From assembly GCA_003614735.1 (NCBI GenBank), contig KZ992443.1:1-60612 (forward strand): 60,612 nucleotides of DNA, given 5' to 3'. The notes beneath the pieces are model-generated. The model saw nothing but the letters and a program-made list of their open reading frames with translations, was not told the origin of the DNA and did no database searches. The position numbers and the translations under genes were made by a program. The DNA comes from Thamnocephalis sphaerospora. Its lineage: Eukaryota; Zoopagomycota; Zoopagomycetes; Zoopagales; Sigmoideomycetaceae. Of the stretch, positions 3,788-60,033 are shown piece by piece (position 1 is the first letter of the stretch; every line of letters starts with the position of its first letter).

Positions 3788-9582
<5,795 letters not shown>

Positions 9583-25244: not shown

Positions 25245-26103
25245 AATCTGCCAGTGCCAGTTGTTTGCTGCCAAACGTCCAGTCAGCACAGTGCGGTGTA
25301 GCTGGTCCAGAGACGGCCATGCGCGAGCAAAACAGCAGCAACCTAGTTGTACGATGCAGTAACGCGGATGGCAATGAACAAGCTACTGTGGGCACGAGTC
25401 AAGGATATGATGCTGAGAAAAGTGACGGACGCGAACACGGCAGGTGCATAATACAAAGCAATACAGGTGCTCCGAGCGCGCATGGCTGCTATCCAGCCTG
25501 TGGGTACATTTTGTAGCCAAGATGACGATGGGTGGGTACCACATGTTTCTTCGTAATCCAGCGACAATCGTCAACGCCTCTACATGGCGTCCAGTTTCAG
25601 CCAAAGGAAAACAGTAGCGGGCCAGATCACTAGAAACCACGCATATCTCGTAACACCGCGTTTGCCTTTCATTTTGGTACGCGAATATTTCGTATGTTCC
25701 ACTTTCGGGTAAATAAAGGCGCGAGAGTATCGTGTTCGTTTCTGATCATCGCGGCTGTGTCTGTACGTGCTAGAGTCTGTGGCTCAACATAGCGCTGGGA
25801 CAAAAACGATTTTAATGACATTGGGAGCAGTTTGTTTTGGAGAATGGTAGCTACGCGCAGCGGATACGCCATGGCGGCTACAGTACGACAGTCCCTAGCT
25901 ATTTGCTATGCGGTGGCTGGTGTACTACTAGAGATGCTCGGGATACATAATACTGCGTTGAGTTGATGCATCGGGACGATGCTAGCGTGGTGGTGGAGAT
26001 GATGACGATGGGAGTGGTGGTAGTAGCAGTAGTAGTAGTAGTAGTGGCGGTGGTGATGGTGCGTAGAAAGCACCACGACGCATGCCTGCTCTACTTGCGC
26101 CGT
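25245..26103. other. spacer between the two Sec14-like genes
   Basis: 0.86 kb holding the copy A promoter and copy B 3' end. A GTA/GTG triplet repeat lies at about 26020-26060. The interval 25640-25950 is comparatively AT-rich. No credible ORF. Confidence 0.5.
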
Positions 26104-27300: not shown

Positions 27301-27939
27301 AGTGCGAGTGTGCGCTTTACAAGCCAGACAGAGCGAGCGGCGGTGATTTACGGAGCGGAAAAAGAAAGAACTGGCGCAAAACACGGTGGGACGCGCTCGG
27401 AGCAGCAGATACATATAGCAGACAAAACGGGAGCGGCGGCCTCGGATCAACACTATGGCCGCCACGATGCGTCTCTGCGTCATAGCATGCTGCCGGGCAA
27501 GCGTGTGACGTGTTCCTATAGGGCCGCAAGCCGTGCGTTGCAGCTGCCAATGCCACCACGCTTATGGCCGTCGCCAGTTGATCCGCATCAGTGCAGCACT
27601 GGCCCAGCATCGAGTCGCCGCTTGAAGCGTGCATTTGACAGGAGAGCGCAGAATAAGGTGGGATTGTGAACCTGAACTGCATGATGCAAATCACATTCTG
27701 ATCTCTCGTTGTCAGTGTAGTGCCACTTTGTTCCTTCTCGCCTTGCCTCACTGTTGCGCAACTATCCACTGTATCCTCCGGACGCCGTGCCAAGACCAAC
27801 TGCGCGTGTGCTATAACCCTCCTCTCTCATCAGCTGCACGTACGTACGCACGCACACGCTCACGCACCTCCACCTTTTACGCTGTCCCGTGTTCTACTGT
27901 TGCCGCCACTGCCCCTACTCTGCAGCCTACGCTACTACC
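27301..27939. other. divergent promoter region Sec14-like B / DUF4870-like gene
   Basis: 0.64 kb. The left part is purine-rich and the right part pyrimidine-rich on the plus strand, matching leaders that point away from each other. No coding signal. Confidence 0.55.
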
Positions 27940-29026: not shown

Positions 29027-30136
29027 CTAGTCGTCCAGGCGCTGCATCAGATATTCCACCTCGACTACCTTGGTAAGCGGAATCACAAATCGCTCGTACA
29101 GCTCAACGACCAGGTCTAGGTTTATCTTGAGCGGTCGGCCGTCGGGCGATCCAGCTCCAGATGGCGTCGCTTCTTTGCCGCCATTGTTGCTGTTACCATT
29201 CGCCGCAGTCTCTTCCTCGTCGCCAATGTCTTGGCCGTAGATCATGGCTTTACGCCGCAGACGCCGCAGTAGACGTGCTTCCACTGCTGGCACCGTCAGG
29301 CGTGCCTCGATGGCAGCACGATCGCCAGCTCGGATCAGCTGTGCATAGCCTGCGGGGTCTTCACGGTACTTTGCCTCGGCGATAAACTTGCCATAGTGAA
29401 TGCGACGCGATAGCGCTTGCAGACATTCAATGTCGCGTGTGGCCGCTGAGCCGTAGTTTTCGTCATCCGCATCTCGACATAGACCGGGGATAATGTGTTT
29501 GAGATAGGCGCTCAGCACTTGGTCGTTGATGTTTACCGTGTTGGCATGCAGCGTGGGCGGATAGTTGAGTTTGGGCAGGATGGCCGATGGCAGCTTGTTG
29601 GTAAAAGGGTACTCGTCCGGACTGTTGTGACCACGTGTGTGTGTGTGTGTGTGTGTGCGTCCACCGGTGAGTGACTGGGCGTATCGGCCAGCACGCGTTG
29701 TTACAGCTTACCTTTCATAGCGGCGGACCTTGGCTAGCGCAGCCAGGGACACGCGATGTCAGCGGGACTGATCATCTGAGAATGGCGCTGGCTTTCGCAC
29801 GCGTATGCGCCTTACCATGGACTTTTTCCACCTCGGCCAAAAAGTACGAGAAAAAGGAGCCGTTGTACCCGTCGACAAAGGGAAAGGCACCTGGCTCGTA
29901 GATGCGCGCGTTGCGTGTAAACTGCGCACGCTCAATCAAGGCTAAGTAGACGCACGACGGTGCCGTTAGCGTGAGCACGGGTGGTGACGACAGCAGTGAC
30001 GGCCGTGACAGCGGCTACATGTGGCACGCAGTACGCTTGTCTACCCACCAAAGATGATGGTGTCCTCAAGGCGGATCAGCGTGTTGCGAAGCTTGTCCAG
30101 CGGGAGTGCGTCATCCTTGACGTGCAAAAGATCCAT
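29027..30136 (-). CDS. ARO7: chorismate mutase
   Basis: Converts chorismate to prephenate, the committed step toward phenylalanine and tyrosine. Exons 30136-30049, 29941-29816, 29733-29712 (a 22-nt micro-exon) and 29621-29027 give 831 nt, 276 aa. The all-helical AroQ fold of eukaryotes is recognisable from the start: LDKLRNTLIRLEDTIIF, ALIERAQFTRNARIY, FLAEVEKVHAKVRRYESPDE, LNYPPTLHANTVNINDQVLS, DIECLQALSRRIHYGKFIAE. The micro-exon supplies KVRRYE, a conserved stretch, so the model is well constrained. A low-complexity insert rich in Gly, Asn and Ser (around DEEETAANGNSNNGG) makes the protein slightly longer than the yeast enzyme. Intron 3 carries a (GT)n repeat. Yeast Aro7 is activated by tryptophan and inhibited by tyrosine; I did not test whether the allosteric residues are kept. 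Confidence 0.95.
29635..29657. repeat. (GT)n microsatellite in chorismate mutase intron 3
   Basis: About eleven GT units. On the coding strand this is (AC)n lying just upstream of the acceptor CAACAG, comparable to the CA tract in remodeler intron 11. Confidence 0.88.
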
Positions 30137-35195: not shown

Positions 35196-36632
35196 ATGTC
35201 GGATCAAGCCGTAACCCCGCAGACCACCTCTGGTGTGGACGAGGCGGCCGCGCGCCTGAGCGGCCTTCACTTCAACGCTTCTGCGCCCGAGGGTGCCAAC
35301 TCGGCCGAAAGTGATATTGCGGCCGACAAGGCGCCAATCTCCGGCCAAGATGCTCCGTCTGAGCGCGACGAGGCGGCGGCCGATAGCGGCAAGATCGAGG
35401 CCGATGGCAACTCGGAGCTCACTCTGCGCGCGCTCGTCACCACCAAGGAAGCGGGTGTGATCATCGGCAAGGCGGGTCGCAACGTTGCAGAACTGCGTGA
35501 GCAGACTGGCGTCAAGGCTGGTGTATCCAAGGTGGTGCCCGGTGTGCAGGACCGTGTGCTGACGGTCACCGGTACGCTGGACGGTGTCGCCAAGGTAAGA
35601 AGGCAGCAGCAGCAGCAGCAGCGGTGATAGTGGTGCACATTGGTACATGTGTACGCGTACAGGAGGTGTACATGGCGATGCATACAGCCTACGGGCTGGC
35701 GGCTCATCGGTGCTCAGGTACCCACTCGACCGCATGCACACGTGGTGGCAAGTGGCGAGTGCGAGGCTGTTCCACCCCCTTCCATCGGGCGCCATTGTCC
35801 TTTTGCCAACCGTGTATGCTAACCATGACACTGCGGACCACCCTAGGCCTACTCGCTTATCGCGCAGACCATGCTGGACAACCCGATCACGCCGCAAACC
35901 ATTGAGGGTGCGCAGGCGCAAGCGGCCACCATTGCCACGGTGCGTCTGCTCATCTCGCACAACCTGATGGGCACCATCATTGGTCGCCAGGGCACCAAGA
36001 TCAAGCACATCCAGGATGTGTCTGGTGCGCGCATGGTCGCCAACAAGGAGATGCTGCCGCAGTCGACCGAGCGTGTGGTTGACGTGCAGGGCATGGTCGA
36101 CTCGATCCGTGTGGCTGTCTGGGAGATTGGCAAGTGCTTGATTGAGGACGCCGAACGCGGCGCTGGCACCGTGCATTACAACCCAGCCGCGCGTCTCACG
36201 GCTGGTGCGGGCGTGGTGGCCGGCGCTGGTGCGGGCGGCGCGCTGTTTGGCGATCGCATGCAGTTCCCGCGTGTGCCGCGCACCGGCAACGGCGCCGACT
36301 TTGCCCGTCCCATTTACGAGACGGCGCACTATGATCCGGAGCGTGATCCGTACCTGCAGGCGACCTCTCGCACCCAGCACATTTCCATTCCGACCGACTA
36401 TGTCGGCTGCATCATCGGCAAGGGCGGCATGCGCATCTCTGAGATCCGTCACCTGAGCGGCTGCCGCATTAGCATCGCCAAGCCGGCCGAGGACAGCAAC
36501 GACCGCATGTTTACCCTGACTGGCGTGGCCGAGGCCAACGAGAAGGCGCTCTATCTGATTTACCACCAGCTGGAGATGGAGAAGCAGCGTCGCCAGCGCG
36601 CTGGCACGCTGATGGGCGAGGAGGAACAGTAG
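35196..36632 (+). CDS. triple KH-domain RNA-binding protein (PCBP/hnRNP-K-like, Rnc1/Pbp2 type)
   Basis: Predicted poly(C)-type single-stranded RNA-binding regulator. Exons 35196-35594 and 35847-36632 give 1185 nt, 394 aa. An acidic, disordered N-terminus of about 72 residues precedes KH1 (about 74-136; GxxG loop GKAG in VIIGKAGRNVAELREQTG). KH2 (about 163-230) has GRQG in IIGRQGTKIKHIQDVSGA. A Gly/Ala-rich linker follows, then KH3 (about 304-375) with GKGG in IIGKGGMRISEIRHLSG. Three intact GxxG loops argue for real RNA binding at all domains. This layout matches fission-yeast Rnc1, yeast Pbp2/Hek2 and animal PCBPs. The single 252-nt intron carries CAG and GT-like repeats and falls inside the end of KH1. 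An acceptor 14 nt before the ATG suggests a 5' UTR intron. Confidence 0.94.
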
Positions 36633-42657: not shown

Positions 42658-43952
42658 ATGAGCTCACCCGTCATGTCGACGACTGCATCACCCGAACCCG
42701 GACTCGGCGATGGAGGCCTGCAGTGCCAGTGGCTCAACTGTGCCAGTCAGTTCAACACGGCCGAAGATCTATTTGCGCACGTAAACGAGGACCATGTTGG
42801 CCGGAACGCCAAGGGAAACCTGTGTCTGGAGTGTCGCTGGGCTGGTTGCACCGTGTCCAAAGCCAAGCGCGACCACCTGATCTCGCACATTAAGAGCCAC
42901 CTCTCCTACAAGCCATATGCATGCGGTCTGTGCGAGGCGCGGTTCAAGCACATGTCGGATCTGAAGCGGCACGAGGGCACGCATCGCGAAAAGGTACCGT
43001 CGCCGTCTGTGATGATGTATGACCAACTGTCGGCCGAGGCGCAGGCCACGGCTAGCATGGCAGCCGCTGCCGCTAGCATCAACGCGGCGTACATGGCGGC
43101 GAGTCCCAGCGTGCAGCATGCTATGCTGGCCGGACATGTCGGCACCACGCTGCCGCCTTCGCCGGTGACTACGCCGAGCATGAACGCGCAGCACTATGTG
43201 CCGTACCAGGCGCTGTCGACGGATCCTGCCTCTGCGCCGGTTGTTCCATGTGGTGGCAACCTTTGTAAGTGTAACACGGCGGCTGTTTGTTTGGGTCAGA
43301 TGCTTACTGGGGCACCGTTGCATTCGTCCTTTTTGCTATGCTAGGGTCGCCGCCCGCCACTGCCGGCGCCATGTTTCCTGGACAGCCGGTGCCGGATGTG
43401 TTCCAGCCAGGCATGGTGGATTCCAGCGGCGCATACCCGCCCCTATCGCCCGAGACGGCGCAAGAAGTCTACAATCAGTTCATGAACTTTACGCTTCACT
43501 CGCAGCGGATGCCCGCGGAGATGCAGCCAGGTATGCTGCTACATCGCCATTCTCTGAATGCGTCGGCAGCGAATGCGTGCGCGCCATCGGTTTTTCAGCC
43601 TCCACTTGGTCCCATCACGCTTCCGATTGAGCCTCTCCCGTTGATTACGCCTAGTCCGAGCAACAACTGCGCCCTGAGCATGGTCAACGTCGTACCGTCG
43701 TCGCGTTCTCCGTCGCTGCCCACCAGTCCGACGGTCGGCACCGTGCGCATGGGTCGATCACGGTCGTCCTCTTGCGTGGCAAAGCGTACGCCCGTGTCGC
43801 GGCGCACGTCGCCCATCAGCGCCATTACGCGCGCGACATCTCGGCTGACGGTGAACCACGGCAGTGCGCGCCGTCGATCGGCGGCCGACTTGGAGGCTCT
43901 GCCGCGTTTGAGCTTTTTCGAGGCGAATCCTATCAGCCATGAAATGCCTTAG
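42658..43952 (+). CDS. PacC/Rim101-type C2H2 transcription factor (paralogue 1)
   Basis: Predicted DNA-binding regulator. Exons 42658-43264 and 43345-43952 give 1215 nt, 404 aa. Three zinc fingers occupy about residues 22-110: CQWLNC..H..H, CRWAGC..H..H and CGLCEARF..H..H. The linker between fingers 1 and 2, [18 protein letters not shown], is the PacC/Rim101 hallmark. The finger 2 helix AKRDHLISH is close to the PacC consensus, whereas finger 3 (HMSDLKRHEGTH) is diverged from the RPQDLKKHE type. Unlike the other three paralogues it has no intron at the finger 3 boundary; its only intron lies about 90 residues downstream. The remainder is Pro/Ser/Ala-rich with a basic patch (MGRSRSSSCVAKRTPVSRRT) that could be a nuclear signal. 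Much shorter than classical PacC, with no obvious processing domain. Confidence 0.9.
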
Positions 43953-44962
43953 ATGACGACGTCTACATTGCCACTGGCTGGCGGCGCGCCAGCTTGTCTC
44001 GGGCCAGTCCAACCGTGCTCTCTCCATCTCCCTCCCTCCCTCCCTCCCTCCCTCCCTCCCTCCCTCCCTCTCCCTCTCTCTCTCCCTAAGTTTGCCCCCT
44101 TTTCTCTCCAACTATGCTCGCCCTTTTCTCTCTCTCTTTTCTCGCACCCTCATTCTTTTTCTTTTCGGCCAACTCTGGCGTTCCTGTCCTTTGCTGCGGT
44201 CGCTCTTTTGTTGTGGGGCTAGCACCCTTTCTGGTGTAGTCCTGCGCTTCTGTGCATGCTGGTGTGTGTGTGTGTGTGTGCGTATGTGGCTGTGTTTGCA
44301 CGTTCACCAGCATGTACCTTGTGCGCGCCTACTGCCCTTTTGCCGCGTAGGCGTCCGCGTGTGCATCTATTCTGGCCGTGGCGATCGTGCCACAGCCGGA
44401 TGAGTCGCTCGGTTGTCGTGTCCTTTCTAGGCATGTACATACGACTCCTCTTTTTGTTTTCCGTCGCTCTCTGCTCGCTATTTGGTTCACTTGCCGCATT
44501 TGACTTATGGTCACCGCTCGGTGACCTGCCTGTCCATCTCACGTTTATTCTACTTTTGTGGCGCATTCGACATATCGTCTGCGAATGCCTCTCGACTCTG
44601 CTCGCCGCTACATCCCAGCTTGTTCCCCCCTGCGGTGCATCATTATCATCATCGTCATCATCTCATTCCTGACCGCCCATGCCCGCGCATCACTCTGTGC
44701 CTTTCTGTTCTTTGCATCTGTTCACGCATTACCTTTGCTTATGTTCACTTTATTCATTGCATTTTACACCCCTATCGGCGTGCACGCTGCGTGTACGATT
44801 CGGCCTCATGCTCAGTTGATTGCGAGCTCATTTTGCTTTGCGTCATGTATTACGCGCCGCCTCGGACGCGAACCAATATACGTGGACGCCGTCGCTAACC
44901 CGCCGGCGCTCTACAACCTTTTCTTTCGTTGCCGAGCAGATATACAAGAGCTGTTGTTCCTC
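43953..44962. other. intergenic: PacC-like 1 / unknown gene
   Basis: 1 kb, strongly C/T-rich on the plus strand from 44020 onward, including a CCCT/CT repeat. An acceptor-like GCCGAGCAG ends at 44939, 23 nt before the next ATG, preceded by a branch-like GCTAACC (44896-44902), so the following gene may have a 5' UTR intron. Confidence 0.55.
44029..44087. repeat. (CCCT)n followed by (CT)n
   Basis: About ten CCCT units pass into CT units. This is a long homopyrimidine run able in principle to form a triplex or slip during replication. Confidence 0.9.
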
Positions 44963-45862
44963 ATGTCTCAAATCGATGCCGCTACGCTGGATATGTTGGT
45001 GCGCGCCACGCCGCCCGACCAGCTGGCCCTACTGCAGCAATATCAGATGCAGCTGGAAGCACAGATGCTGGCCGATGCCGCCGGCTTTACTCAGGCCACG
45101 CCAATGATGGCACCGCTGTCTCCCGCGCCGACCGAAGGATCCATGGCGTCACCGGCCCTGCTGCCAACCGTGGAAAAGCTTCCGCCGGCGCACTATAGCA
45201 CGCACGGCGCCACAATGATTATGCCGCGCAAGGTGGCCACCGTCAAGGATCGCGGCAACGACTCGGTGCTGTCGTCGCTGATGAGCAAGCTACACATTGG
45301 TTCGCGCCAGGGTGAGGAAAAGGACTCGCGCAAGATGAAGCCGGCGACGACGGTAGCGGTGACAAACCCGGCCCAGACAAAGCCGTCAAAGGCTTCGATG
45401 GGCGGTTCTGCGACCGCGCCAGTGGCCGCTGTTGGCAAAAGGGACGGTATGAAGCGGTACACGCCGCCGGCCAGCCATCGTGCCAAACGCTTCGAAAAGC
45501 CCACGACCAACAGCCTTGCTTTGGCGAGCGCCGGATCACTAGGTAAGAAGAAGACAGAGGCAAGCGCTGGCAAGACAAAGGATCAACCGGCGGTCGACGG
45601 ACAAACCAAGGGCAAGGAAAGCGAACGCGACGATGCCCCTGCGGACGCGCCTGGCGCCGACAGCAGCAGTGCCGCGGTGGGACGGGAGCGCATGCTTGCA
45701 CTGCTCCGACGCTTGCAGATGCATGTAGATCAGACCACGAAGGTGCAGGAAAGCGAACCGACTTCCGACAAGGCCTCCGACAAATCGGTCGCAAGTTTGA
45801 GCACGGCCGAGCCCGCTTCAGACGCCGATGCCGTGGCACCAGCGCAGGCCAGCATTGGATGA
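44963..45862 (+). CDS. hypothetical disordered protein
   Basis: I do not recognise this gene. The frame is open for 300 codons (299 aa) from MSQIDAATLD to a TGA at 45860-45862, with gene-like third-position use and none of the Arg/Cys/His excess of the random frames nearby. The N-terminus has a short amphipathic helix (LDMLVRATPPDQLALLQQYQ) followed by QMQLEAQML. The middle is Lys/Ala/Thr-rich with a distinctive RYTPPASHRAKRFEKP block. Near the end RERMLALLRRLQMHVDQT could form a helix, and the last 40 residues are acidic. Upstream codons in the same frame read as a hydrophobic leader from pyrimidine-rich DNA and were left out. It lies between two PacC-like genes but has no zinc finger itself. 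Confidence 0.6.
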   Translation: MSQIDAATLDMLVRATPPDQLALLQQYQMQLEAQMLADAAGFTQATPMMAPLSPAPTEGSMASPALLPTVEKLPPAHYSTHGATMIMPRKVATVKDRGNDSVLSSLMSKLHIGSRQGEEKDSRKMKPATTVAVTNPAQTKPSKASMGGSATAPVAAVGKRDGMKRYTPPASHRAKRFEKPTTNSLALASAGSLGKKKTEASAGKTKDQPAVDGQTKGKESERDDAPADAPGADSSSAAVGRERMLALLRRLQMHVDQTTKVQESEPTSDKASDKSVASLSTAEPASDADAVAPAQASIG

Positions 45863-48273
45863 GACCGTGTGGTAGCATTCCGAATCTCTTTGCTATCGCC
45901 TACTTTCCTTTTTTCCCTTGTCGCGGTTGGTTTCCCTGTGCCAGCGGTGCATATTTGTGCTGTTCGGCATTGCCGGCAGCGGCACAGCCATGCTTGCCAT
46001 CCGTCGGCACCGTGGGCCGTTTCTCATCGGTTAAACAGCGGTGTTTTGCGTATTCCGCTCACGAACAAGTTCTGAGCCCTGCCTTGCCAACAATGCGTAA
46101 TGATATCGGTGATTGGCACCGATGCTGCACGCGCGCCCCTTGCGGTCTTCGCTCGAGACGAAGCATGCTTGCATTTGGAAGCATGCGAGTTACTTGGTTG
46201 GTTGACGCGGGCGTATCTGGCGAGAGCAAGCGGCAATGGCAGCCGCGTGCATGCTGACTGGTGACGGTGAGCGCCAGGTTGGTAACTTTACTATTTGTTG
46301 CATCATCCCAGCGGCGTGTCTGCTTGTGTGCGTGCCTGCTTGGAGCATGCTGCCGCCAAGTTGCATGCTGGCCAGCAAAGCGCAAAGCAAGCCGTCTATT
46401 TCTGGCGACGTGCCGACCGTCGCTGGAAGGCGCGGTACCACCATTTACTTAGGAATGCTTAGAATAGGTGCGTCGCGGCCAAAGCTTGGCGAGGTGACCA
46501 AGCCTTTTTCCAGGCGTACCCAGTGTGTTATTAGTCAGAATGGAAGCGACCATGGTCACGAGCTAAGCGGACGCAGCGATGGCGTCGGCAACAGAGATCT
46601 GCACGTACGCCTTCTGTGAAACGCACGCATGAGCATGCGCCTCGACAGCGAACATTCGTTCCAGACCAAGCCGAACTGGTAGAGCTTGGCGCACATGACG
46701 TAGGCCCACGCGTACGAAGCAAGGCGAACGAATGAATGCATGCACCGCTGGCACATCCATGTCGGAAACTGCGCCGTAGGTGAAGACCATTGCAGATCGA
46801 GCGTGCAGTCGCTGCAGACAGTACAGGCTTGACGAATGGCCTGCTCGACAGAGAAGCAGGCCTTTGGCAGTATGGTATGACAGCGCCAATACGCAAGGCG
46901 GCCATGACGCACGCGCGCCATACAGGGCGGAGGAATATGTACAGGCACGCGTAGGTATGTAGGCAGCTGCCGACCGGCGCTACGGTTTCGCCGAGATGGC
47001 GGCGGCGATGGAGGCCAGCCCCATGCCGTCGGCGTGACGCTCGGCGTATCATGACGTGTTGTCGTACGTGCCTTGAACAGGTGCATATGTCCAGTAAACG
47101 GACCGAACGCTTGACAACGGCCAACTGGGCATTGCTGGCTAGAAGCCACCCGCCGACCAAGCGAAGCTGATGCGGCGGCGGCTGATGACGACGATGGTGG
47201 CGATGGTAACCGCCATGAAGGATGAACAGGTAATGAGGATGGATGGATGGTGGTAGCATAGAGCATATGGACCAACGCATGGCCAGTGCACCCACGCTAG
47301 TCATGCGCATGCGCCGCAAAAAGCATGTCATCTGCCTACCCCGAGGTTTACCTTGGCACTACACGCAAATACACACCGTGTGTCTGCCAACTGCGTAGTG
47401 GCCAATATGCCAAACAGGTCTGGACCTTCTCGGCCCGTTGCGCCACGCACGGTGGCACATGTAGAAGTGACGGCGTGCGCGCCACATGTGACGTGGTAAC
47501 GCCAGCATCGGAGGAATACAGATGCACATGCGCTGCCTTGCTGTGCTCGGCGTCAGCCTACTTGCCAACATGAGCCATCGTGATATCGGACAGCATGACG
47601 TTTTGCGAGCCAAGCATGACCTTGCCAGCGAATGAGATGGCATTACTACGTTCGATGCTACGGTGATGACTGCAGCGGCGACTGTCAACCACCACCACGA
47701 CGTGTGTGTGTATGTGTGTGTGCATGCGTGCCTGCACGGCCAGGATGGCGGTCAGAGTGTTGGCTATGGCGTGTTCCTTAGCCATGGCATATACGCGCAC
47801 GCGCTCATGTCCACCCACACAACACGACTACCGGACTGCTGGGCAAACGTTGCCTTGTACAAAGCTATCGGCATGGTGCCTAGACGGGCATACACACATG
47901 ATGATGGGCTTGGCTTTGGCGCGTGCATCGTCATGACTGCGCATCCTACACGCGTGCATACATGTGCACTCTCTCGTCCATCATGGGCCGCGATGTACTG
48001 GGCAGCTCGGCGTACTGACCTAGTGCACGCGCGCATCTCGACAGCCTATGGAAGCCTGCGTGGCAACGCGCGTGAACCGTCCGCCCCTGCTCATGCTTTG
48101 CATGTACGCATGTATGCGATAATACATGGTCGGAGCGGCGCCAACCTCGGCCTTGCGCCTCGGTGGCCACAGCAGCGTTCGTTACTGTAGCATCGCGCCG
48201 GAATTACTACACGATGCTTGCCGGATTCATCGGCCCGCCGCTCAAGCTGCAGCCGTTGCTGTGCGTCGATGCC

Positions 48274-48281
48274 TATATATA
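48274..48281 (+). promoter_or_regulatory. TATA-like box (distal), upstream of PacC-like gene 2
   Basis: GCCTATATATACGCGCG, immediately followed by a 360-nt pyrimidine-rich block that ends at a donor-like GTATGT. It could start a spliced leader transcript reaching the gene at 50361. Confidence 0.35.
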
Positions 48282-49843
48282 CGCGCGCGCTATGCTGCGA
48301 TCCCCGCCTATTTGCCCCTTTGCTCCTCTTACACTTTTGTGCCTGCACCGTTTAGCTCGCTTCGCTCTGTCTGCCACTCTGCTTGGCTCGATCCAGCGCT
48401 GTCATTCTATCGCGTACGCGAGCCCATTTCGGTAGCCAGTGTGCAGTCTGTTCCGCCTCCTTTTTCACCATCATCTGTCTGCCTGTTCGCCTGTCTCTTT
48501 CCACTCGTCTTCTCTCGCTTTCGCTTTCGCTCTCTCTCTCTCTATCCGCTTTCGTGTTCGCTCCTTGCTTCATATAATCTACCGGTGGCAACGACAACGT
48601 GATCCGTTATCGGTGCCGCCTTTGCTCTTTCTCGGTCACACGCCCTGTACGTGCTAGACCAAGTCGGCAGGTATGTGTTGCCGCAGCGTCTTTTACGTGC
48701 GGCCCTTGGAGGGGGTTATCTTTGGCCTAGGATCGCCTTGTATGCGTGCGCATGGGCGGTGTCGTCACAACGGGGGGCATTGCCTTTTTCCATCTAGCAA
48801 GTTCTGCCAAGAAGTCAACGGTCACCCCACTGGTGCTGACGGATGGATGGCTGGCTGGCTGGCTGGCTGGGTGTGGCGTGGTGTGGTGGCGTTTCGGGCA
48901 GATGGCTATTTGTGCACATAGGCTGCCTCGATGCTGGGTGCACGCATGTTCTGCTGTGCACCGAAATGTCGAATAAGCATGCGGTCCAGCAGGGCCCAGT
49001 GCATGTGTACGAGTGCGAGTGTGTCGTGGAGGAGGTATCTGCCTTGTTCTGTGCTTGACCTATTTCGGCGCCGGGTGAACCGCGCTGTCCGCACGCTGCG
49101 TCAGACGCACACCCATCTGCTTGTGTCCCCGTGGCCACGGCGGTTTGCCAAGCCGGCTGCCGGCCACCACGCTCGCTTGGCCTGCATCACCTTTTGCGCG
49201 CCACGCATGCCACGCTTCGAGGCCGCCGGCATGAGATGTGTGCGCATAGGCGGCCTAGCCGGCGTGCATGTGGCGTCTGACGTGATGGACAGAGCGGGGT
49301 GGGTGTGGGTCGATGTTGGCAACGTGCGGAGTACGCTTGCTAATGCGCGCCGGTCTTGCCCGTGGCCAAGCCAGCCGATGGGCAAGCATACGTGGGGGCG
49401 GATGGTGAGTGTGAGCGACGATGGGTGGGTGGGTGGTGGGTGGTGGGTGCTCATGAGCGGGCGCGGCAGCATGAGTGTGAGAGTCGCAAACTCGGCCGGC
49501 TAAACGCTGGCCCCAGTAAGCTTGCTCACGTTGCCGATGACGAACGAGCACTCTTGGCGATGCGCTGCAGTCTCGGCAGTGGAACGCGCCATGGAAGCAT
49601 GCATATGTGTGTGCGCGTATGTGTGCGCGTGGATGGGGGTGGATATGTACGTGAGCGGGTGGGTGGATGTGCCTTGTGGTCTGCCATGGCATCGTCCTGG
49701 CCAGTGCCTTACCTGGCGCGTTGGCTTCGGCGGAAAATAGCCGTCCAACCGATGATGATACACCTGCCTCGCCTTGTCCAGTGCCGGTTTGGCCCAATCC
49801 ACTGTGGTCGGGTGCTCTGCTCTGTCGTCCTCTCTCTCCCCTC

Positions 49844-49851
49844 TATATATA
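49844..49851 (+). promoter_or_regulatory. TATA-like box (proximal), upstream of PacC-like gene 2
   Basis: CCTCTATATATACACC about 510 nt before the ATG; a second TATATATAT lies at 49934-49942. Both precede C/T-rich DNA. Confidence 0.4.
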
Positions 49852-50360
49852 CACCTCGGCGTCGGGCGATACGCTCACACGCCCAGCACACGCTTAGTCG
49901 CCCAGACAGTCCTTCTCCTGGCCGTACGCCGCATATATATATTTAGCGCTGAGGCTTTCTCGGCGTTGCCGGCCCTATCTCCTCGACTTTTGGCTAGCCT
50001 GTTCTTTTGCTTCTCGCTCTCCCTTCCACTCACCGCTACGTTACTGCCTGGCACAGTGCTTGCATTGACCTTTCTGCCTGGCGCTCGCTCCCACGATTAG
50101 GATTGACCTCGTTTATTGTGCGTGTGGGTGCGTCGACTCTGACCACGCGGCGACCATCACGGCTTCTACTCTGCAGGCGTCCGCACGCGCGCATATACGC
50201 TGCGCTCCAACTGCTACCTCTACCGCGTTCGACCGCAGTTGCGCTAGTAGACGTGCACGCGCTACCGATTGCGCCACGGGTTGAATCAGCTCGTGCGCTA
50301 GAAACGCTGTCGCCGCCACTGCTTCTCTGCCGCTACTCCCTTCGTAGCGTACGCTAAACT

Positions 50361-51817
50361 ATGTCGGCGCTGACCCATACAGTCGCCCCGCAAGTCGCCG
50401 TGAAACACGCGTTCCCGCTGCTACCGCTGCCGCACTCGGCGTCGGCACATTCATACACGCGCGTTCAGCAGCGGTCGCCGCCCTACGCGATCAAAACGGA
50501 GGAGCCGATGCTGCCGGCTTACCGACCTGCTTCGACGGAACCGCCACTCTACGTTGAACACCAACACCACCAGCAACAACACCACCACCACGCGACGGCG
50601 CCGCATACCCCGCCCACGCCGCCTATGCCTTCGCTGCCGGTACCGCACTCGGTGACGCCGCCGACGCACGGCCACCAGCTGCCGTCGCTGTCGAGCATCC
50701 TGGAACCGACCTTGTCCCAAGCGCGGCCGTCGCGCACCGCGTCGGCGTCGCCGGGACTGCCGTATCCAAATGCCGGTCTGGCCTCAGCGCCGATGCCGGC
50801 GCCTATTTCCGCGCCGGGCCCTTCGCCCGCATTGGGTATGCAGACCACCGTACTGGCATCCGGTCGCTCGTCGCCCTCGTCGCCTTCGCACATCTACCAC
50901 TGCCGGTGGCGCCAGTGCGCGCGTACGTTCCATGGCCCCGAGTTGCTCTACCAGCACCTCTGCGACGATCACGTCGGCCGCCATGCACGCGGTAACCTTT
51001 GTCTGGAATGCCGCTGGGAAGACTGCCAGACAGTGACCAACAAGCGTGATCACATCACGTCGCATCTCCGCGTTCATGTCCCGCTGACGCCGCTGCGCTG
51101 CCGGGTAAGTTTTGCGGCGACACTAGGGTGGATGAGCAGCCCTTTGCGAATGGGGACGATGGGGTGCCCTTGGTTTGTCATGCCAAGCATTCGCCATGCA
51201 TAGCGCCAATCCTCAGCCAACTAACGATGTTGCTTACCGCTTGGCCACGTCACATCTGCAGGTATGCGATAAGCGTTACAAGCGCCGCCAAGACCTGAAA
51301 AAGCACGAACGCAAACACATGGAGCGTCTAGAGCTGGCTGGCGGTCAGCTGGGCGCAGAGTTGTCGGGCATGGTAAGCCCTTTGCCAGGCACCATGCTGC
51401 CTACACCGTCGGCCGTGGGTGCGCCGGGCGGAGGACATGCGCCATTGGGCATGACGGGCCGGCATTCGCTTTCGCCGGCGATGCAGATGCGTCACCAGTT
51501 GCCAGCGCCCGTGCCGACGCCCACTTCGGCTTGCTATCTACCTGGACCGCCGTTGCCGCCGCCATCGTCGTCGCCGGCGTCGGCGTCGTCGTCGGTTGCA
51601 CACATGAACGGCGTGGCACCGACAAACAACTCGGCGCCGTACGCCCAGACGCCGTACCAGCATCAGCGGTCCAACTCGTGCCCACAGCCGATGGCCTATC
51701 ACGCTTTGCCGCCGCTCTTGTCGGGACAGCCAATGCACGAGTCGGCTCGCCCGCATGATATGCATTCTACATATCCGTATCCATCGCAGCAGCAGTCATC
51801 ATCGACACACCATCAGT

Positions 51818-51851
<34 letters not shown>

Positions 51852-52287
51852 CCATCATTCTGCACAGCAGTCGTGTCACCATCGCTCGCATCCCACCTTG
51901 CCCTTGCCGCATAGCCCGCGCGGCGAGTTCTCGTCGATGCAGCCACAGGCCTACCCGCCTGCGTACTCGCCGGTGGCCCCGAATGCACCCTGCTCGTACG
52001 CCGCCCCTTGTCGTACCGAGGATGCACCTGCCGGTCACCAGCATCAGGCGCCTCTGTCGCACGGCCACCGGTCCAACTCGTCGTCGTCGTCGTCATCATC
52101 TTCGTCGTCGTCCTACTTTCCTCTGCAGCAGCCGCAGCAGCCGCACCACCTGCACCGGCAAGAGTACGCGCCGATGATCACGGAGCGGATATCCAACTCC
52201 CCCGTCGGTGACTGCCGCGTACTGCCGCCGCCGCTGTCCAACGGCCCTGTTCCCATGTCTGCTTCCTCGACCAGTGGTTCGCGCTAA
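50361..52287 (+). CDS. PacC/Rim101-type C2H2 transcription factor (paralogue 2, closest to the PacC consensus)
   Basis: Predicted pH-response-type transcription factor. Exons 50361-51104 and 51262-52287 give 1770 nt, 589 aa. Zinc fingers span about 181-272: [38 protein letters not shown] and [20 protein letters not shown], then [19 protein letters not shown]. This is nearly the textbook PacC/Rim101 three-finger block, so it is the best candidate for the ancestral gene of the cluster. The intron falls in phase 0 between CR and VC at the start of finger 3, the same place as in paralogues 3 and 4. Flanks are long, Pro/Ser/His/Gln-rich and disordered, with His, Gln and Ser runs coded by CAT, CAG and TCG repeats. 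A sumoylation-like IKTEEP and the C-terminal half may be regulatory. I see no clear PacC signalling-protease site or YPxL motif. Confidence 0.93.
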
Positions 52288-52550
52288 ACGATAGCGGCGT
52301 GGCCAGCTGGTAGCTGTGGAACGTTGCCCATCTCCCGGCTTTCTTTTGGCCATCTTGGCGTGCAGCGCCCTACATGGCGGTTTGCGCGCTTCCTCTTGTG
52401 TTTTCCGACCACGTACTTTGTAACGAGAATCCGTACGCGTCGCCCTTGGCATGCGACGCGCTCCTGAAGCGTGAGCCGGCTGGCTTTGCGCTCCGGACGC
52501 GTCTCCGCTTCTTACACAGCTTTGTTTCTTGCCGGTTTTGCCTCCTCTCT

Positions 52551-52593
<43 letters not shown>

Positions 52594-53986
52594 CACACTC
52601 TCGCTCGCTGCCATCCTCTCCGCTTTTCTGCGGCGCGTACGATTCACGTCTCACTCCCACTCTCTCTCCTCTTCTCTTCCACAGAATTGCTGCCATTTTT
52701 GCTTTTATTGCACTTGCACGCCCTTGTCGTGGTTTTGCCATACTCGCTGCCTTTGTTCTCCGCTTTTCGCTGTCATTATACTTTCTTCGCCGTATCGACG
52801 TGCACGCACCCCACCCAATCCACACACACACATTGCCGCCGTCTCCCTTTCTGCCATCATCAGTTTTTCCGCGCTCTGGTTCTGCCACAGCGTCTGTTCT
52901 TTCCAACCATTTCGTCTGCGCTTTGCTTGCCATATTTGCACTCCTTCAAGGAGCATGCGCGCACGCTCATCTAAACACAGCGCGCCGCCCATGCATACAC
53001 CTGTACGGATGCACGCACGTCCGTGTGCATCCACATGCAATGCCACACTTGCACTACTCACTTTCCGGTCGCGCAAGCCATCGGCCATCTCCATCTTCAT
53101 TAAAACACGGTCATGCTCTGAATAGCTATGTTTTTCCGTTCCGCGGCGGAGACAGCGATGACGACAGTGACGGAGGCGGTGCTGATGATCCTGGCAACGA
53201 TAGCACCATCATCGGCAATGGATAATCCATTTACCAGCACGGGCAAGCCAGCGAAAATAGCCTAAGCTTACTCAGCGCACCGCCCCCTTTTTTCTTCTCT
53301 TGGCCCATTTGATGGCACTGTCACGCAGGCGCCGCCTCTTTGGTTGCCTAATCGGTCCACATTGACAAGGCACAGCACCAAGGCATCACTATCCGGTGCT
53401 CTCTCCCTTTTCCACTGTGGCTCGCGCATGGACGCACAGGGCAGAGGAGGGAACGTTGCAAGCAGTGTGTAATTGTATGTATAAAATAGTGCGTGTCGAA
53501 ACGAGGAAAATAGTGGACTGGCGACGCCCGGAGATAAAAGACAAGCAGACGCCGATAGCGACGGGAAAGAGGTAAGCTGGCAAATGAAGACGCATCCACA
53601 ACCGGCGAGGCGGTGATGTAAAAAGAGAAGGGCCATCTTTCGGCGGGTTCCGGCGCTGGCGGCCGGCGAAAAAAGGATAGCGTGCGTCGAGGCCCAGGCA
53701 TCTTCCGGAAGCAAAAGCGGTGCGTCGATGAGCGCGCGTGCGCCGTACAGCAACGGTCGGCCGGCAGCGCAGTGCAGACAGAAAGACAGACGTATGCGAA
53801 TTCGAAAATAGCGGAAAAGTACAGGCGCCCGCGATACAAACGCGCCATCGTGCCAACATTGGCATCGCGGATCACGTAAGCGCCGCAGGCAGCATGGACC
53901 GCGCGGCACAGAGCATGAATCGCCAGCGCCGCTGTTGCCGCGGCTATGGTGTCGTCGTAACGGCGGGACAACGACGACGGCGGCGA
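52288..53986. other. 1.7 kb convergent region between PacC-like genes 2 and 3
   Basis: 3' ends of two genes facing each other. C/T-rich on the plus strand over 52330-52900, with a (CA)n repeat at 52552-52587. No credible coding frame; the 283-codon frame at 52374 is translated microsatellite and pyrimidine-rich DNA. Confidence 0.55.
52552..52587. repeat. (CA)n microsatellite
   Basis: About eighteen uninterrupted CA units, in the 3' flank of PacC-like gene 2. Confidence 0.92.
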
Positions 53987-56652
53987 TCACTGGCCCTGCC
54001 AGCGGATCCGTTCTAGCGACCGTTTAAACTTGATCTGGCCCGGCGCGCCAGAGATATTACGCAGCGAAAGCTGCTGCATCCGCCGCATCACCATATCAAT
54101 ACGAGCCCGCGAGCGCTTGTCGCCCGGCATGCCCGGCGTTCCAACGTTGCCCGCCGCCATCACCGGCGCCATGCCCGCCATGGTGGTCGCCACTGGTGGC
54201 GTGGCCGGATGGCTCACCATTCCCAGCGGGCCATTCTCTGGGAGCGGAGGCGTGCTGTGCATCGCAGCCGTTGCCGCCGCCGCTGCTGCTGCCGCTGCCG
54301 CCGCTGCATGCATACGCAGCGCGTCCATAGACTGCGACGAGCGCAGCAGGTTTGCAGCCGCCGTCGAGTGTTGCCGTGAGAGACGGTCGGTGCTGCGCGA
54401 CGGTGAGACCATGCGCGTGCGCAACTCGGTGCTGCGCATCGGCCGTAGCATGGACGGCGAGCCTGGCGGGCGCACTGTCGGCCGCATCCGACCGCGGTCG
54501 ACCAGCATCGGCGTGGACTGCACTCGGCGCAACGATCGCTCGTCACCTGCCAAGCCGCCGTTGGACTGCGCAAGCCGGCTGGCCCACGTCGACATGCTCG
54601 TCACCGGTTCGTCAGCGCCCGTGCTGTGCGCGGCTGCTGACGTGCTGTCCTGCGATGGTACACCAAATATTTCGCTTGGCTGCACGCCCATGGCCGATTC
54701 GATGCCCATTGGATACTGTGTGCATGAGATAGCAGCAATGGTTAGCATGCGACCCGTTTCGCGCCAAGTCCCATCCAAGGGCGCCCACCTCTTGAGCCAT
54801 CAGCCAGCTGTACTGCGCCGCGTCCATCTGTGGGCCTGTAGCCATCTGCGTGTCCATCTCCGCCGGCTCCTCTTCAATCTTGACGGGTGGAGAATAAGCG
54901 GCGAACGCGGCGCTTTCTAGCGGAGCTCCATAAAGCAGCCCGTCGTTGGCCGGTGTGGACACAGGCACCTGCGGCTGCGAGGAAAGCTGCGGAGCAAATA
55001 CCATATGCTGCGGAAGTGTAGCACCCACGCTGGACGAAGCCAGACCTGCCGGCATGCCCGCCTGGGAGAATGGTATGCCCGCTGCCAACAGCGCCGTCTG
55101 CTGGTCGAGCAGGTACTGGTTGCCAGCCGCGGTGAACGGCGTCGTCAGCGGCAGCCCGTTGATAAAGGTGTCGGCCGCCGGAGACGACGCAACGCTAATA
55201 TCGTCGCCCGACATGGCAGGACTCACGCCGCGCTGCGCCAAAAATGTCATGCTATCTATCATGGCAGCGTTGGTCGGCACCATCGAGGGCGACGTGGGCG
55301 GTTCGCTTCTTGAGCCACTGGCGCGTGCTACAAAGCATGCCCCATCAATGACAATGACGACGCTGGTTAGTCGCCATACTTGGTCACGAGAGAGAGAGAG
55401 AGAGAGAGACATGGACGCATAGTCGTCGTCGTTGTCGCCATTGTCCTACCCACCTTGTCCGCTGGCGTTGAATACACCAAAAAAGTTTTCCACAATATGC
55501 ATGGCATCCGGGTTACTCGACAGCAGTTGTTTCAGCATTTCCGGGTCCATGTTGGAAAATTCTTCGCTCCACGCTGCAAGCGCTGTAGGTGGCACAAGCA
55601 TGGGCGTACCATCACAGTGAGCAAGCGATGATCGGGTCAGGTCGGCTTGGGTTGCACGTATTTACCCTTGCCCTTGCCGCAACCACCCGTACACCTACCT
55701 GGATCGTCTAGATTGGGCTGAAGACGCCCTTCGCTGATCGCCTGGATGAAGCGCTGGAAGGTGGAGATGGAGCGCTCTCGCTTTGCGTGAAGCTGCGCCG
55801 CTTGCAGGTTGGCATCCACCGGGAATCCATTGGACATCAATCCACCTGCCACTGTACGCAAGCCATGAGCACATGATCTCCACCTGCCTGACCAACTCAT
55901 CCATAAACAACTTACGCTGATGCATCGGCTGGTGCTGCGACTGCTGCTGCTGTTGCTGGTGATGATGATGATGTTGCTGCTGTTGCTGCTGCTGTTGCAC
56001 TTGCTGCTGAGCCAGCAGCGTAACGATGGAGCTATCGTTTTCCACCGCCACACCGTGCAATGAGGCCAGATCAGTGTCGTCAGACAGCACTGAACCCGTT
56101 TCCATGGCATTATCATCCGGCGAGCCGCCAGCAGCTGGGCCGGCAATGTCGTGCTGCCGGCGTAGATGCTTGGTCAAATCCGACTTCCACTTGAACGTGA
56201 CCGCGCAAATCTAACCATAGACATAAGTATACCCGTTGAACGCACCGATTCATCCCCAAGCTCCAACGTTCATCAAGCGCAACGTGTCTTACATGGCACT
56301 GAAAGGGCGACAGCGGCACATGGCTGCGCAAATGACTGTTCATATGATGCCGCTTCTTGCTCTTGCATCGGTACTGGCAGCCTTCCCAAAGACATGCGAC
56401 ACCCTCGGCCATTTCACCCGATTTGCCATCCACATCCGCACCACCGGATGTCTCTTGAGCCAAACCCAGGGCAGCATAGGAGCTGCTGGCATGTGCTTGG
56501 CACAAATGGTCATAGAGCGACTGGGGACAAAAGAGCCGGCCTGCTTCAAGACAGCCACGCCAGCGACATGCCAGCTGCTGCGTGTCTTCGTTGAGCGGGC
56601 GTAGCGACAAGGAAAGCATGCCAGTACCGGTGCTGGTAGCATTGCTGGCCAT
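53987..56652 (-). CDS. PacC/Rim101-type C2H2 transcription factor (paralogue 3)
   Basis: Exons on the minus strand: 56652-56293, 56210-55916, 55851-55699, 55582-55454, 55327-54789, 54715-53987; 2205 nt, 734 aa. Fingers lie at about 29-141: CRWRGC..H..H, then an expanded linker (ASSSYAALGLAQETSGG) instead of the VGR-GNL linker, CLWEGC..H..H with KKRHHMNSHLRSHVPL, and CHICAVTFKWKSDLTKHL. Intron 1 is phase 0 between CH and IC at finger 3, matching paralogues 2 and 4. C-terminal features are a Gln/His-rich run (about 175-205), EEFSNMDPEMLKQLLSSNPD, an acidic VKIEEEPAEMD patch, an Ala run of about 12 residues, and a basic end (MRRMQQLSL, FKRSLERIRWQGQ). Exon 4 could instead begin at 55645, adding 21 in-phase codons (DLTRSSLAHCDGTPMLVPPT). 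Intron 4 contains (GA)n. Confidence 0.88.
55388..55409. repeat. (GA)n repeat in PacC-like gene 3 intron 4
   Basis: About eleven GA units, read as (CT)n in the transcript of the minus-strand gene. Confidence 0.88.
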
Positions 56653-59081
56653 GTTGGCGTTCTAGCGACAAACGTTGTCGTCGTATTACGGTCCGGCCAC
56701 AGACAGCAGAGGGTGGTCAGCCCAGCGTGTAGTGTAGACGGATAAGTGGTGATGGATAGCGGCTGATCCAGGGTGGTGGACTAGGGCAATAACAATCGCG
56801 AGAGAGATGGACTCGGGCAAGGGGCGAGTAATGCGTGTATCGGAGCCTGCGGACAAGGGGCGCACAGCCAGGAGGCGATAATAAAAGACGAGCCAGCGGC
56901 TCCGCCAGCAGCGTAGGCGGGCCAGACACAGTCGGCCGGTGGCAGGCGTACACACACACACGCGCGTGTGCTTGGTGCGCAGGTCAACGCGAATCGAATT
57001 GACACGGTCGCACACCGCACGATAGGCCGAGCTTAATGGCGGTGGATGGAATGCGCACGCGTGGTCGCGGCAATAGAGCGATGGTCGGCCGCTTCTCAGA
57101 CCGCAGCACTAGACCAGCGTCGGCAGACGGACCGTCTTGGGCACCAAAGAAAGAACCTGGCAGGAGAAAAAAGAGACCTGGATGGAGACAAGCGCAAGAT
57201 GATTGCGCGTTATGGTGGTCAGTGACACGCGAGCTAGCCAACAAGCACGCGACAGCCCAGCAGGAGACGAGCCAACGGCGGTAGAAAGGGGACAAGAGAG
57301 CCTAGGGAGAAAAAGTCTGGCAAGCCAGGTAGAAGCAGGCCAACGGAGCAATGATAGGGCGAAAGCAAGCCACTGCCGCCGCCGTAGCGCAGGCGCGTAC
57401 GCTTGGGTGGACAGGAAAGAGACGAAACAGCACCGTGCCAAAAGCTAAATGACCGACGTGAAGCGACAGTGCGGCCGTGTGCATCAGAGCGCAGGCACGC
57501 GATGCACCGAGTTGTGAACCAAGTTGCGGCAGGCAGCAAAAGCGTGGGTGAGGGTGTGTGTATGTGCGGGTTGGTGTGCGTTCGTGCGTACAGACATGCG
57601 TGCGTACACAGACGCGTGGACTGACCAGCGAACCGACTCGCAAAGCGCCAAACGAGCGCACGCGCGGAATAGAATGCCTAGCCAGCACCGCCAGTAGGCG
57701 TCGTAGAGTGAAAAAAGACAGGATGAAGCGACTTTGTCGAGGCGCACACGCAATAGATGCGGTGGTACGAGCAAATGACGGGGCGATGGTAAAGGACGCA
57801 GGGCCGCAATGGCAAGGCCAAAGCCGGTCGGAGCAGGATGAGGCGAACAGAGACGGGTGGGAGTGGGGACAGAGCGTGCGTAGGCGTATGGAAGCGCGGC
57901 AGCGACGGAGTGAAAAGGCCGGGCGGAGCAAAGATGGCGTTGAGGACAGAAAAGGGAACTGCGCGGTAATAACACTGGCCACGCCTGAAGACGCCGTCTA
58001 AACTCACCTAGGACGGCGAAACGGCGGACCGCGTGAGCAAGGGCTTTGCAAGCGTAGAAGGCGTGTAGCGTTGGCAGTGACGGCGGAAAGGGACGATGGG
58101 GAAGAGAGGGTGGAGGCATGGGGCCAGGCGGGCGGACACAATAAGCCAAGCGAGTGAACGAGCCATGGTGCAGCAGCAGCCGCACCCACCAATCGCATCA
58201 TCAGGCAGACCACTGCCATGGCCATGGACAAGAATGGACATTCACAGTAGCATCCAACCACATAGTGGCGGCAACAGTCGTGGGGTAGACACGTAGATAG
58301 ACACGTAGGTAGGTAGGCAGGTAGACCAGGAGGTAGGTGGATGATGGTAGGATGCTATCGTCTATGGCTCATGATTACTGCTACTACTGCTGCTGCTAGA
58401 GCAAACCAGCTAAACCTTGAAACGCCAGTGACAAAGTTGGCAGTGGGCACAAGTGCAACCAACGGATGCCCTGACGAGCTGCCTGACCAGCTGATGATAG
58501 TAGCAATGGTATGGCACAGACAGATGCTGGTCATACGCATCTACCACCCCCACCACCACCACCACCACCACCACCATCTACATTCACGCGTATCCCATCG
58601 CGTTCAGTGGACGGCAGCATGTGAGTGTGGGTACAGATCTGTCGGGAATAGAACGCGGGGCGGGATAGCACGCGCCATCTCTACGGCACAACGTGGCGAT
58701 GCGTGCCACTTGAAGTGAGCACCGCATGCAAGTGTGCTCGCGCGTTGCCTGTACCTTGGCCGCGCAAATAGCATTGCATGCGGGCAAAGCAGGCAGGGTG
58801 CAGCTGGCACGCAGCAGAGGCGCAGCGATAACGTGAACCCGCGTTTATTCAAGCGTCACCTTGGCAGCAGCCTTTCAGGTCGTGTGCTACGTGCGTTACA
58901 ACGCCGCTCGACCTGCGAGCAATCTTGTGCTGGTGGCTGGCCAGCAATTGAAACAGCAAAGAGAAGGTTATACATCAATGGAAAAGGCAAGGAAATGCAG
59001 AAAGGGAAACCATAGCTAAACATCATCATCCACCCCACCCTCTCGCAAAACGAGAGACCTGGAGCAATGGAAAGGGCAGCG
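56653..59081. other. 2.4 kb region between PacC-like genes 4 and 3
   Basis: Promoter and leader of gene 3 and the 3' flank of gene 4. From about 56850 to 58100 the plus strand is purine-rich, hence pyrimidine-rich in gene 3 orientation, suggesting a leader over 1 kb long. GCCAAG/CTTGGC hexamers occur at 58145, 58755 and 58860. A (CAC)n repeat lies at 58550-58576. No convincing ORF. Confidence 0.5.
58550..58576. repeat. (CAC)n repeat
   Basis: Nine CAC units on the plus strand in the spacer between PacC-like genes 3 and 4. Confidence 0.88.
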
Positions 59082-60033
59082 TTAGAACAGACCAAAGTCA
59101 CTGGCGTCGCTCTGACTCGGTGAGGATAGACCGAGCATTTGCAATAGCATCATATGCGATGCCTCCTGGGGAACGTTCTGTGGTGTGTCTTGCGGCACAT
59201 AGGGCGATACGCTTGGCGTTAGATCCTGCGGTAGAGCGGTATCGACCAGCGGCAGCATCGTCAGGGCCGATGACAGTGACGCCAGCGATGGTGTGGGTGA
59301 GGCACTCTGCGGCACAACGTTGGTGATGCCTTTGCCTGGCGTTTCAGCAGAGCTGCCACCATGGTTGCGGTTGATGTGGCGGTTCAAGCCGGACGAGTGC
59401 TTAAAGTTGCGGTGGCACACCTGGTTACAAGTGGGTACAAGCGTTAGCGCACGCAGTCACACATGGCTTGTGTAGCATCGTACTCACTCGGCAGGAGAAC
59501 ATCCAGCATTTTACGTGGCATTTGAGATGAGCAATCAAATGGTCCCGTTTCTTTGACACTCGGCCGCAGCCTTCCCAGCGGCATTCGTGGCCAGTGGGCT
59601 TGGGACCCCGGCAGCGACCGCGGGGCACGTGTTCTCGGCCAAGATGTTCCAACAGGTCGGCGGCATCGGCAAAGACACAACCGCAGTTGCTCCATTTGCA
59701 CACGTGGAGCTGGCTGTTGGCGCTGAGCGGCGGCGGCTGTGGCGCAGGGTGGTAGGCCTCGTGGGCGGCAGGTGGCCGCACGGCTGGCTGGGCTGGCCAC
59801 ATGCCGGCGGGATAGGCCAAAGCGGCGGGATAGGGTGGGCCGACGACACCGACGCTCAGCGGCCTGGCATTTGGCATGGCAGCATACGGAATGCCCATTG
59901 GTGCGTTCGCTGGACTGGTCAGCGGATCGGCACTAGACACCGCAAACGGATTTTTGGTGCCAGGCAGTGCGTTGCAAAACTGCGCGTGAGACATCAGTTG
60001 CTGCACGTGCGCGGCCGAAAAGTTGAACGTCAT
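59082..60033 (-). CDS. PacC/Rim101-type C2H2 transcription factor (paralogue 4, shortest)
   Basis: Exons 60033-59488 and 59420-59082 give 885 nt, 294 aa from MTFNFSAAHV; an in-frame ATG 12 codons upstream is possible. A Pro/Ala-rich N-terminus of about 110 residues precedes the fingers at about 112-203: CKWSNC..H..H with DLLEHLGREHV, CRWEGC..H..H with KKRDHLIAHLKCHV, and CRVCHRNFKHSSGLNRHINR. The intron is phase 0 between CR and VC at finger 3, identical in place to paralogues 2 and 3. Finger 3 has SSGLNRHI where PacC has RPQDLKKHE, so sequence preference probably differs. The tail of about 90 residues is Pro/Ser/Thr-rich and ends QSDASDFGLF, a possible small acidic-hydrophobic activation motif. 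It reads toward gene 3 in the same orientation. Confidence 0.9.

Follow-up and report, generated by a model that had tools for sequence, protein, structure and literature searches.

The window analysed here is an entire contig (KZ992443.1, hereafter C20; 60612 bases) from the assembly of Thamnocephalis sphaerospora, which comprises 14,455,036 bases in 594 contigs, and it carries four genes, P1 to P4, with the three-finger C2H2 architecture of the PacC/Rim101 transcription factors. The fungus is considered an obligate mycoparasite and was sequenced by single-cell methods with a SPAdes co-assembly, according to sections of its genome paper (PMC6784888). As argued below, the four genes are probably part of an old PacC/Rim101 expansion, shared at least partly by Thamnocephalis and Syncephalis, in which derived factors stand beside one full-length PacC.

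Four PacC-type genes in the window

The gene models, built on GT-AG junctions read in the sequence, bear out the preliminary description of this DNA as regards the four genes, their coordinates, their CxWxxC, CxWxxC, CxxC finger architecture and their + + - - orientation, in which two pairs face inward (Table 1). Two CxWxxC fingers, a CxxC third finger and both histidines are present in each of them. An insertion separates fingers 1 and 2 in P3, the interfinger linker is rewritten in P4, and the classical 13-residue linker, earlier credited to P2 alone, is indeed found there but is retained in P1 as well. Finger 3 of P1, P3 and P4, already described as diverged, carries the recognition residues HSDR, WSDK and HSGR, respectively, in contrast to the canonical RQDK. 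A deposited protein (P0123, THASP1DRAFT_21688) is identical to the P4 model, beyond which the contig continues for 579 bases. Later exons of P3 may possibly extend to about 53987, but a trial junction to them ran into a stop. A metagenome relative of P2 (P0001) shows 80% identity over 72% of the query region.

PacC-type loci in the genome and their arrangement

The finger blocks of P2 and P1 were used as queries for a search of the T. sphaerospora genome and the matching contigs were then read directly; the counts given here are lower bounds. At least 12 PacC-type loci were identified on five contigs, namely P1 to P4 and eight more, and the term 'cluster of four' used previously therefore holds for the window but understates the genome. 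Contig C423, a reverse copy of positions 10732-24976 of C210 (14245 bases, 99.96% identity), was not counted and reflects either assembly redundancy or two haplotypes. The surroundings of the locus on C87 resemble those of C586-B (GPF-x-CRW, DIWQH and HLDW); the trees, profile scores and recognition-residue scoring reported below cover loci other than C87.

A phase-0 intron occupies one identical position in finger 3, between the first cysteine with one further residue and the next residue with the second cysteine, in ten of the 12 loci (P2, P3, P4, C586-A, C586-C, C210-a, C210-b, C210-c, C11 and C87), P1 and C586-B being without it. This shared position argues for common descent of the loci and, since the canonical-looking C210-c also has the intron, it probably predates the duplications.

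An overlap of exactly 55 bases connects the right end of C11 with the reverse-complemented right end of C210 and with the start of C423, which we take to mark adjacent contigs of a k-mer assembly with k = 55. A second array would therefore run C11, C210-c, C210-b and C210-a, all on one strand. At the start of C586 stands C586-A, which is closest to P4 in the first tree described below and has the same orientation as P4. No exact end overlap was found between C20 and C586, and the final 37 bases of each of these two contigs are unique in the assembly. For the Syncephalis fuscata proteins P0121 and P0125, related to P1 and C586-B, respectively, the longest contig listed is in both cases one of 541153 bases, which suggests that the two lie on one contig. 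The sisterhood of P4 and C586-A, taken together with this listing, makes the adjacency of C20 and C586 likely.

Table 1. Coordinates of the PacC-type loci of T. sphaerospora and of the finger-3 introns in the window (P1 to P4 lie on C20; other loci are named after their contigs)
Feature	Position	Strand	Remarks
P1	42658-43952; exons 42658-43264, 43345-43952	+	404 aa; fingers about 42724-42996; finger 3 without intron
P2	50361-52287; exons 50361-51104, 51262-52287	+	589 aa
P2 finger-3 intron	51105-51261	+	Phase 0, GT-AG read from sequence
P3	55701-56652; exons 56652-56293, 56210-55916, about 55851-55701	-	Most diverged window gene
P3 finger-3 intron	56211-56292	-	Position and phase as in P2
P4	59082-60033; exons 60033-59488, 59420-59082	-	Short, 294 aa
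P4 finger-3 intron	59421-59487	-	Position and phase as in P2; P4 model is deposited P0123
C586-A	1083	-	PacC-type locus; finger-block search and contig reading
C586-B	5926	+	PacC-type locus; matches deposited THASP1DRAFT_25719
C586-C	9235	+	PacC-type locus
C210-a	4141	+	PacC-type locus, found by motif
C210-b	14417	+	PacC-type locus
C210-c	18859	+	PacC-type locus; full-length PacC candidate
C11	73830	-	PacC-type locus
C87	match at 9152-9334	+	PacC-type locus among weak matches; three fingers and shared finger-3 intron

Weaker matches, kept outside the count, were obtained on C126, C112, C370, C17, C59, C54, C434, C243 and C223 and elsewhere on C210 and C423. A check for CxWxxC fingers covered 13 loci, with neither C54 nor C223 among these; the fingers on C126 and C59 carry the signature and are GLI-like in appearance, as judged by eye, and those on C17, C112 and C434 carry it in fingers of another make.

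The window contig also carries a tandem pair of CRAL-TRIO (Sec14-like) genes at 24039-25382 (-) and 26104-27561 (-), with 42% identity over 387 aligned positions, a chorismate mutase type II domain at 29027-29707 (-; 34.8 bits), a KH-domain protein at 35847-36632 (+; two stretches, 109.7 bits) and a QLQ domain at 4136-5107 (+; 55.9 bits), the last being of a kind that occurs in chromatin-remodelling ATPases.

Family identity, C-terminal regions and phylogeny

A profile was constructed from 118 canonical PacC finger blocks, drawn from the best 120 of 506 matches to P2 after P0001, which has no finger 3, and P0063 were left out. The upper six best-stretch scores belong to C210-c (150.7 bits), P2 (148.7), C11 (132.6), P1 (113.9), C210-b (108.0) and C586-A (100.3), and the lower five to P4 (61.7), P3 (53.1), C586-B (43.0), C586-C (42.4) and C210-a (31.6). 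As controls, animal GLIS2 (P0137) reached 55.9 bits, two Gfi-1 proteins 26.9 and 26.4 and the top of 21 other C2H2 open reading frames (ORFs) of the same genome 34.4. On these scores the upper six are secure PacC relatives. Of the four window genes, for all of which a PacC/Rim101 identity was earlier proposed, P1 and P2 therefore belong securely to the family. P4 is supported as a member by its grouping with a clear PacC relative, C586-A, and by the shared intron; the case of P3 is weaker and rests on the intron and the clustering. Support for C586-B is limited to its kinship with C586-C and its location on C586.

Canonical PacC proteins contain a conserved mid-C-terminal block (KRxxDxxxxFxxDxKKxRxxPxYD), a profile of which matched 77 of 119 canonical proteins. 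Among 2850 ORFs from five contig stretches, a clear match was confined to C210-c with its copy on C423 (28.4 bits, E 2.2e-7; the next ORF reached 5.2 bits), with no match anywhere on the window contig, and C586-A and C210-b end soon after finger 3, as read from the sequence. PacC fingers, PacC recognition residues and the block thus occur together in C210-c, which is alone in having the block among the loci examined and is the best PacC orthologue, and P1 to P4 resemble DNA-binding forms that have lost the control region typical of PacC.

Three other candidate features were discarded. A third canonical C-terminal element, considered as a link to P3 and C210-c, was matched by a regular expression in 10 of 119 canonical proteins and by an iterated profile in 97 of 119, and no ORF exceeded 5.1 bits. 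YPx[LI] motifs were too scattered in the 120 best P2 matches to be of use as a test. The ORF at 44963-45862 (+), in the interval between P1 and P2, resembled a detached PacC tail by eye but was not listed in a search with a tail profile (built from 38 of 52 matching proteins, near-identical ones removed). This ORF, of about 300 aa, has no Pfam match and its C-terminus is charged and of low complexity.

A first tree was inferred from 52 rows and 91 columns, the canonical rows being reduced to 33 of 118 by the removal of near-identical ones. C210-c was placed among the canonical PacCs, the ten other copies then known formed a 17-row group with Syncephalis and metagenome relatives (97/94) and P4 stood next to C586-A (99/82). 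In a second tree of 48 rows, from which C210-a, C586-C, the outgroup and the partial P0001 were removed, the grouping of P1 and P0121 with P4, C586-A and C210-b was supported (95/91), and a grouping of the derived copies with C210-c was not rejected (approximately unbiased (AU) test, p 0.41).

Thamnocephalis and Syncephalis both belong to the order Zoopagales. Close kin of P1 and C586-B were found among the C2H2 proteins of S. fuscata and S. pseudoplumigaleata (P0121, P0125 and P0126), all three of which are deposited as hypothetical proteins. P0121 of S. fuscata is 74% identical to P1 over the finger region, and the expansion is therefore likely to be older than the genus Thamnocephalis; the relatives of C586-B (P0125 from S. 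fuscata, and P0126) show 73-78% identity in the matched part.

Origin of the loci and their probable roles

The preliminary description explained the four window genes by local duplication followed by specialisation, which is taken here as a recent tandem origin from one PacC gene. The presence of four similar genes in 17.4 kb, and the intron position common to three of them, would agree with such an origin, but a single clade of P1 to P4 is rejected (AU p = 3.7e-11, from a short alignment with long branches), P4 groups with C586-A and C210-b, P1 has its relative in S. fuscata and the finger blocks of the four genes are 37-49% identical; the duplication of these genes from one another is accordingly highly improbable. 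The accompanying suggestion of specialisation is plausible, since the finger-3 recognition residues of P1, P3 and P4 are changed. Apparent copies might also have been generated by DNA of a host fungus or by chimeric amplification, for which the single-cell SPAdes co-assembly and the redundancy of C423 and C210 could be cited. The G+C content, however, is 57.5-59.5% in C20, C586, C210, C423 and the 8364-base end of C11, identity between finger blocks, compared for 11 loci, is 24-57%, so that these are not allelic or amplified copies, and close kin of both P1 and C586-B occur in Syncephalis, which together make an artefact very improbable.

A mixed origin deserves more attention, in which P1, P2, P4, C11, C586-A, C210-b and C210-c are PacC-derived and P3, C586-B, C586-C, C210-a and C87 come from another, GLI-like C2H2 family partly located in the same region. 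The best stretches of P3, C586-B, C586-C and C210-a do score below animal GLIS2 on the PacC profile, that of C210-a falls below the best of the other C2H2 ORFs of the genome, and P3 yields no Pfam match above cut-off. Nevertheless, the phase-0 intron of finger 3 lies at the same position in P3, C586-C, C210-a and C87 as in the canonical C210-c, and P3, C586-B, C586-C and C210-a share their contigs with clear PacC relatives, so that we consider a mixed origin unlikely, though of appreciable weight.

An old PacC expansion is thus the reading preferred here, and several further observations have to be set against it. Whole-sequence scores, which sum repeated fingers, are higher for the two Gfi-1 proteins (73.6 and 73.0) and GLIS2 (68.9) than for P3 (63.3) and P4 (62.0), and since the best stretches of P3, C586-B, C586-C and C210-a are also lower than that of GLIS2, the PacC descent of these loci and of P4 rests on the intron, the position and the tree. 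In the second tree the 14 derived rows did not come out as one clade, although such a clade was not rejected (AU p 0.39). Both trees drew warnings about long branches and the small number of columns, and the bootstrap of the second had yet to converge. Searches with the P1 and P2 models did not return these models among the deposited proteins. The mid-C-terminal block is absent by profile from 42 of the 119 canonical proteins too and its absence is hence not conclusive; in C210-c itself, the match to the last-helix tail is weak although first-ranked (10.2 bits, E 0.06) and the third C-terminal element was not found by profile search. The signs of the Pal/Rim signalling proteins PalH, PalA and PalB are thin: a possible PalH-like membrane protein on C136 (4936-5271, -) scores 20.7 bits, below the Pfam cut-off, the ALIX V domain is represented by three pieces, all below cut-off, and the calpains, over the cut-off at two loci, are at most candidates for PalB. 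Finally, the PacC site GCCARG does not occur in the 579 bases before P4 and is not clearly enriched before P3.

The recognition residues provide further insights into the derived loci. They were scored as helix positions -1, +2, +3 and +6; C210-a did not fit the scoring. Every canonical block (118 of 118) carries KDHS and RQDK in fingers 2 and 3, respectively, an invariance that may be overstated as the blocks were drawn from the best 120 matches to P2. Both sets are present in C210-c and P2 among the loci scored, and KDHS is kept with a changed finger 3 in C11 (RHDK), P1 (HSDR), C586-A (HTGR) and C210-b (RPAR). In fingers 2 and 3, respectively, P4 carries KDHA/HSGR, with finger 2 nearly kept, and P3 carries KHHS/WSDK, with both altered, and neither canonical finger is kept in C586-B (SFRS/HGDK) or C586-C (NFCS/HCDK). 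S. fuscata P0121 has KDHS/HSDR, identical to P1, and the altered finger 3 of P1 is therefore conserved between the genera.

PacC fingers 2 and 3 contact GCCARG, according to parts of a published account (PMC12193740), and the predicted target is therefore this site for P2 but an altered site for P1 and P4. Within 1 kb upstream, on either strand, GCCARG occurs five times before P1 (41658-42657), seven times before P2 (49361-50360) and three times before P3, the contig mean being 2.14 per kb. First-order random sequences, 300 for each gene, reached the observed count in 4 cases for P1, 1 for P2, 42 for P3 and 300 for P4; when the contig was cut into 597 overlapping stretches of one kb, 3.9% of these held at least five sites and 0.8% at least seven, and five scrambled patterns gave 0-2 matches before P1 and P2 and 0-5 before P3. 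The excess is suggestive of a possible PacC feedback on P1 and P2 only.

The DNA specificity and regulation of these genes, and any role in the pH response or in mycoparasitism, can be inferred from such features as follows. C210-c, with the classical fingers and the mid-C-terminal block, most likely stays the pH-regulated factor, and the derived genes would have kept the three-finger frame and mostly also the ancestral finger-3 intron. An unchanged finger 2 combined with a changed finger 3 would most likely direct the proteins to sites sharing one half with the PacC site and differing in the other. P2, having both recognition helices and no C-terminal block, would recognise GCCARG free of the proteolytic control usual in PacC and may compete with PacC or reinforce it.

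Canonical PacC/Rim101 proteins, such as those of Coemansia biformis (P0003) and Cokeromyces recurvatus (P0007), likewise have three C2H2 fingers with CxWxxC signatures; in comparison with these, C210-c and P2 are identical in the recognition residues of fingers 2 and 3 and C210-c keeps the mid-C-terminal block, whereas the window contig is without it, finger 3 is changed in P1, P3 and P4 and 12 loci are present in one genome. Animal GLIS2 shares the CxWxxC signature and the general spacing but has more fingers, and its linkers and helices differ from the PacC type. The earlier statement that most fungi carry a single PacC gene is a simplification, as some fungi show two entries among the matches listed; Zychaea mexicana, Benjaminiella poitrasii and Parasitella parasitica (BD408DRAFT set) have two each in the best 120 of 506 matches.

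An expanded pacC family with a full-length pacC_O and truncated pacC_a, b and c is described in Fusarium oxysporum NRRL 32931, and truncated PacC is pH-independent in Aspergillus and Fusarium, according to sections of one report (PMC6994591). As far as those sections go, the two cases are alike in having one full-length orthologue and homologues with fingers that have lost the C-terminal regulatory part. The F. oxysporum copies are found next to transposable elements, within lineage-specific regions, and their DNA-binding domain is preserved at the amino-acid level, whereas those of T. sphaerospora are clustered, more numerous and altered in their recognition helices. Thus, PacC expansion as such has already been published, but a clustered, dozen-locus set with changed fingers in the Zoopagales was not found in print: the literature on PacC, on Zoopagomycota C2H2 proteins and on T. 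sphaerospora contains no apparent description of one, as judged from search listings, and a term search of the main text of the genome paper returned neither 'transcription factor' nor 'zinc finger' (PMC6784888).

The recognition residues of PacC look nearly frozen, and one canonical copy together with relatives that keep one finger and change the other would constitute a natural experiment in the evolution of binding specificity. It is conceivable, although we advance it tentatively, that in the Zoopagales an ancient clustered duplication turned a conserved pH regulator into a group of at least a dozen factors, located largely in two arrays (the window with C586, and C11-C210 with the full-length PacC), with finger 2 fixed and finger 3 diversified in several of them. 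As a regulatory set these factors would read PacC-like half-sites, some of them being themselves under PacC control, and might possibly serve mycoparasitism. PacC matters in the antagonism of other fungi by Trichoderma virens, according to portions of a published study (PMC3618310), and the loci identified here may add a candidate regulatory expansion to the biology of obligate mycoparasites.

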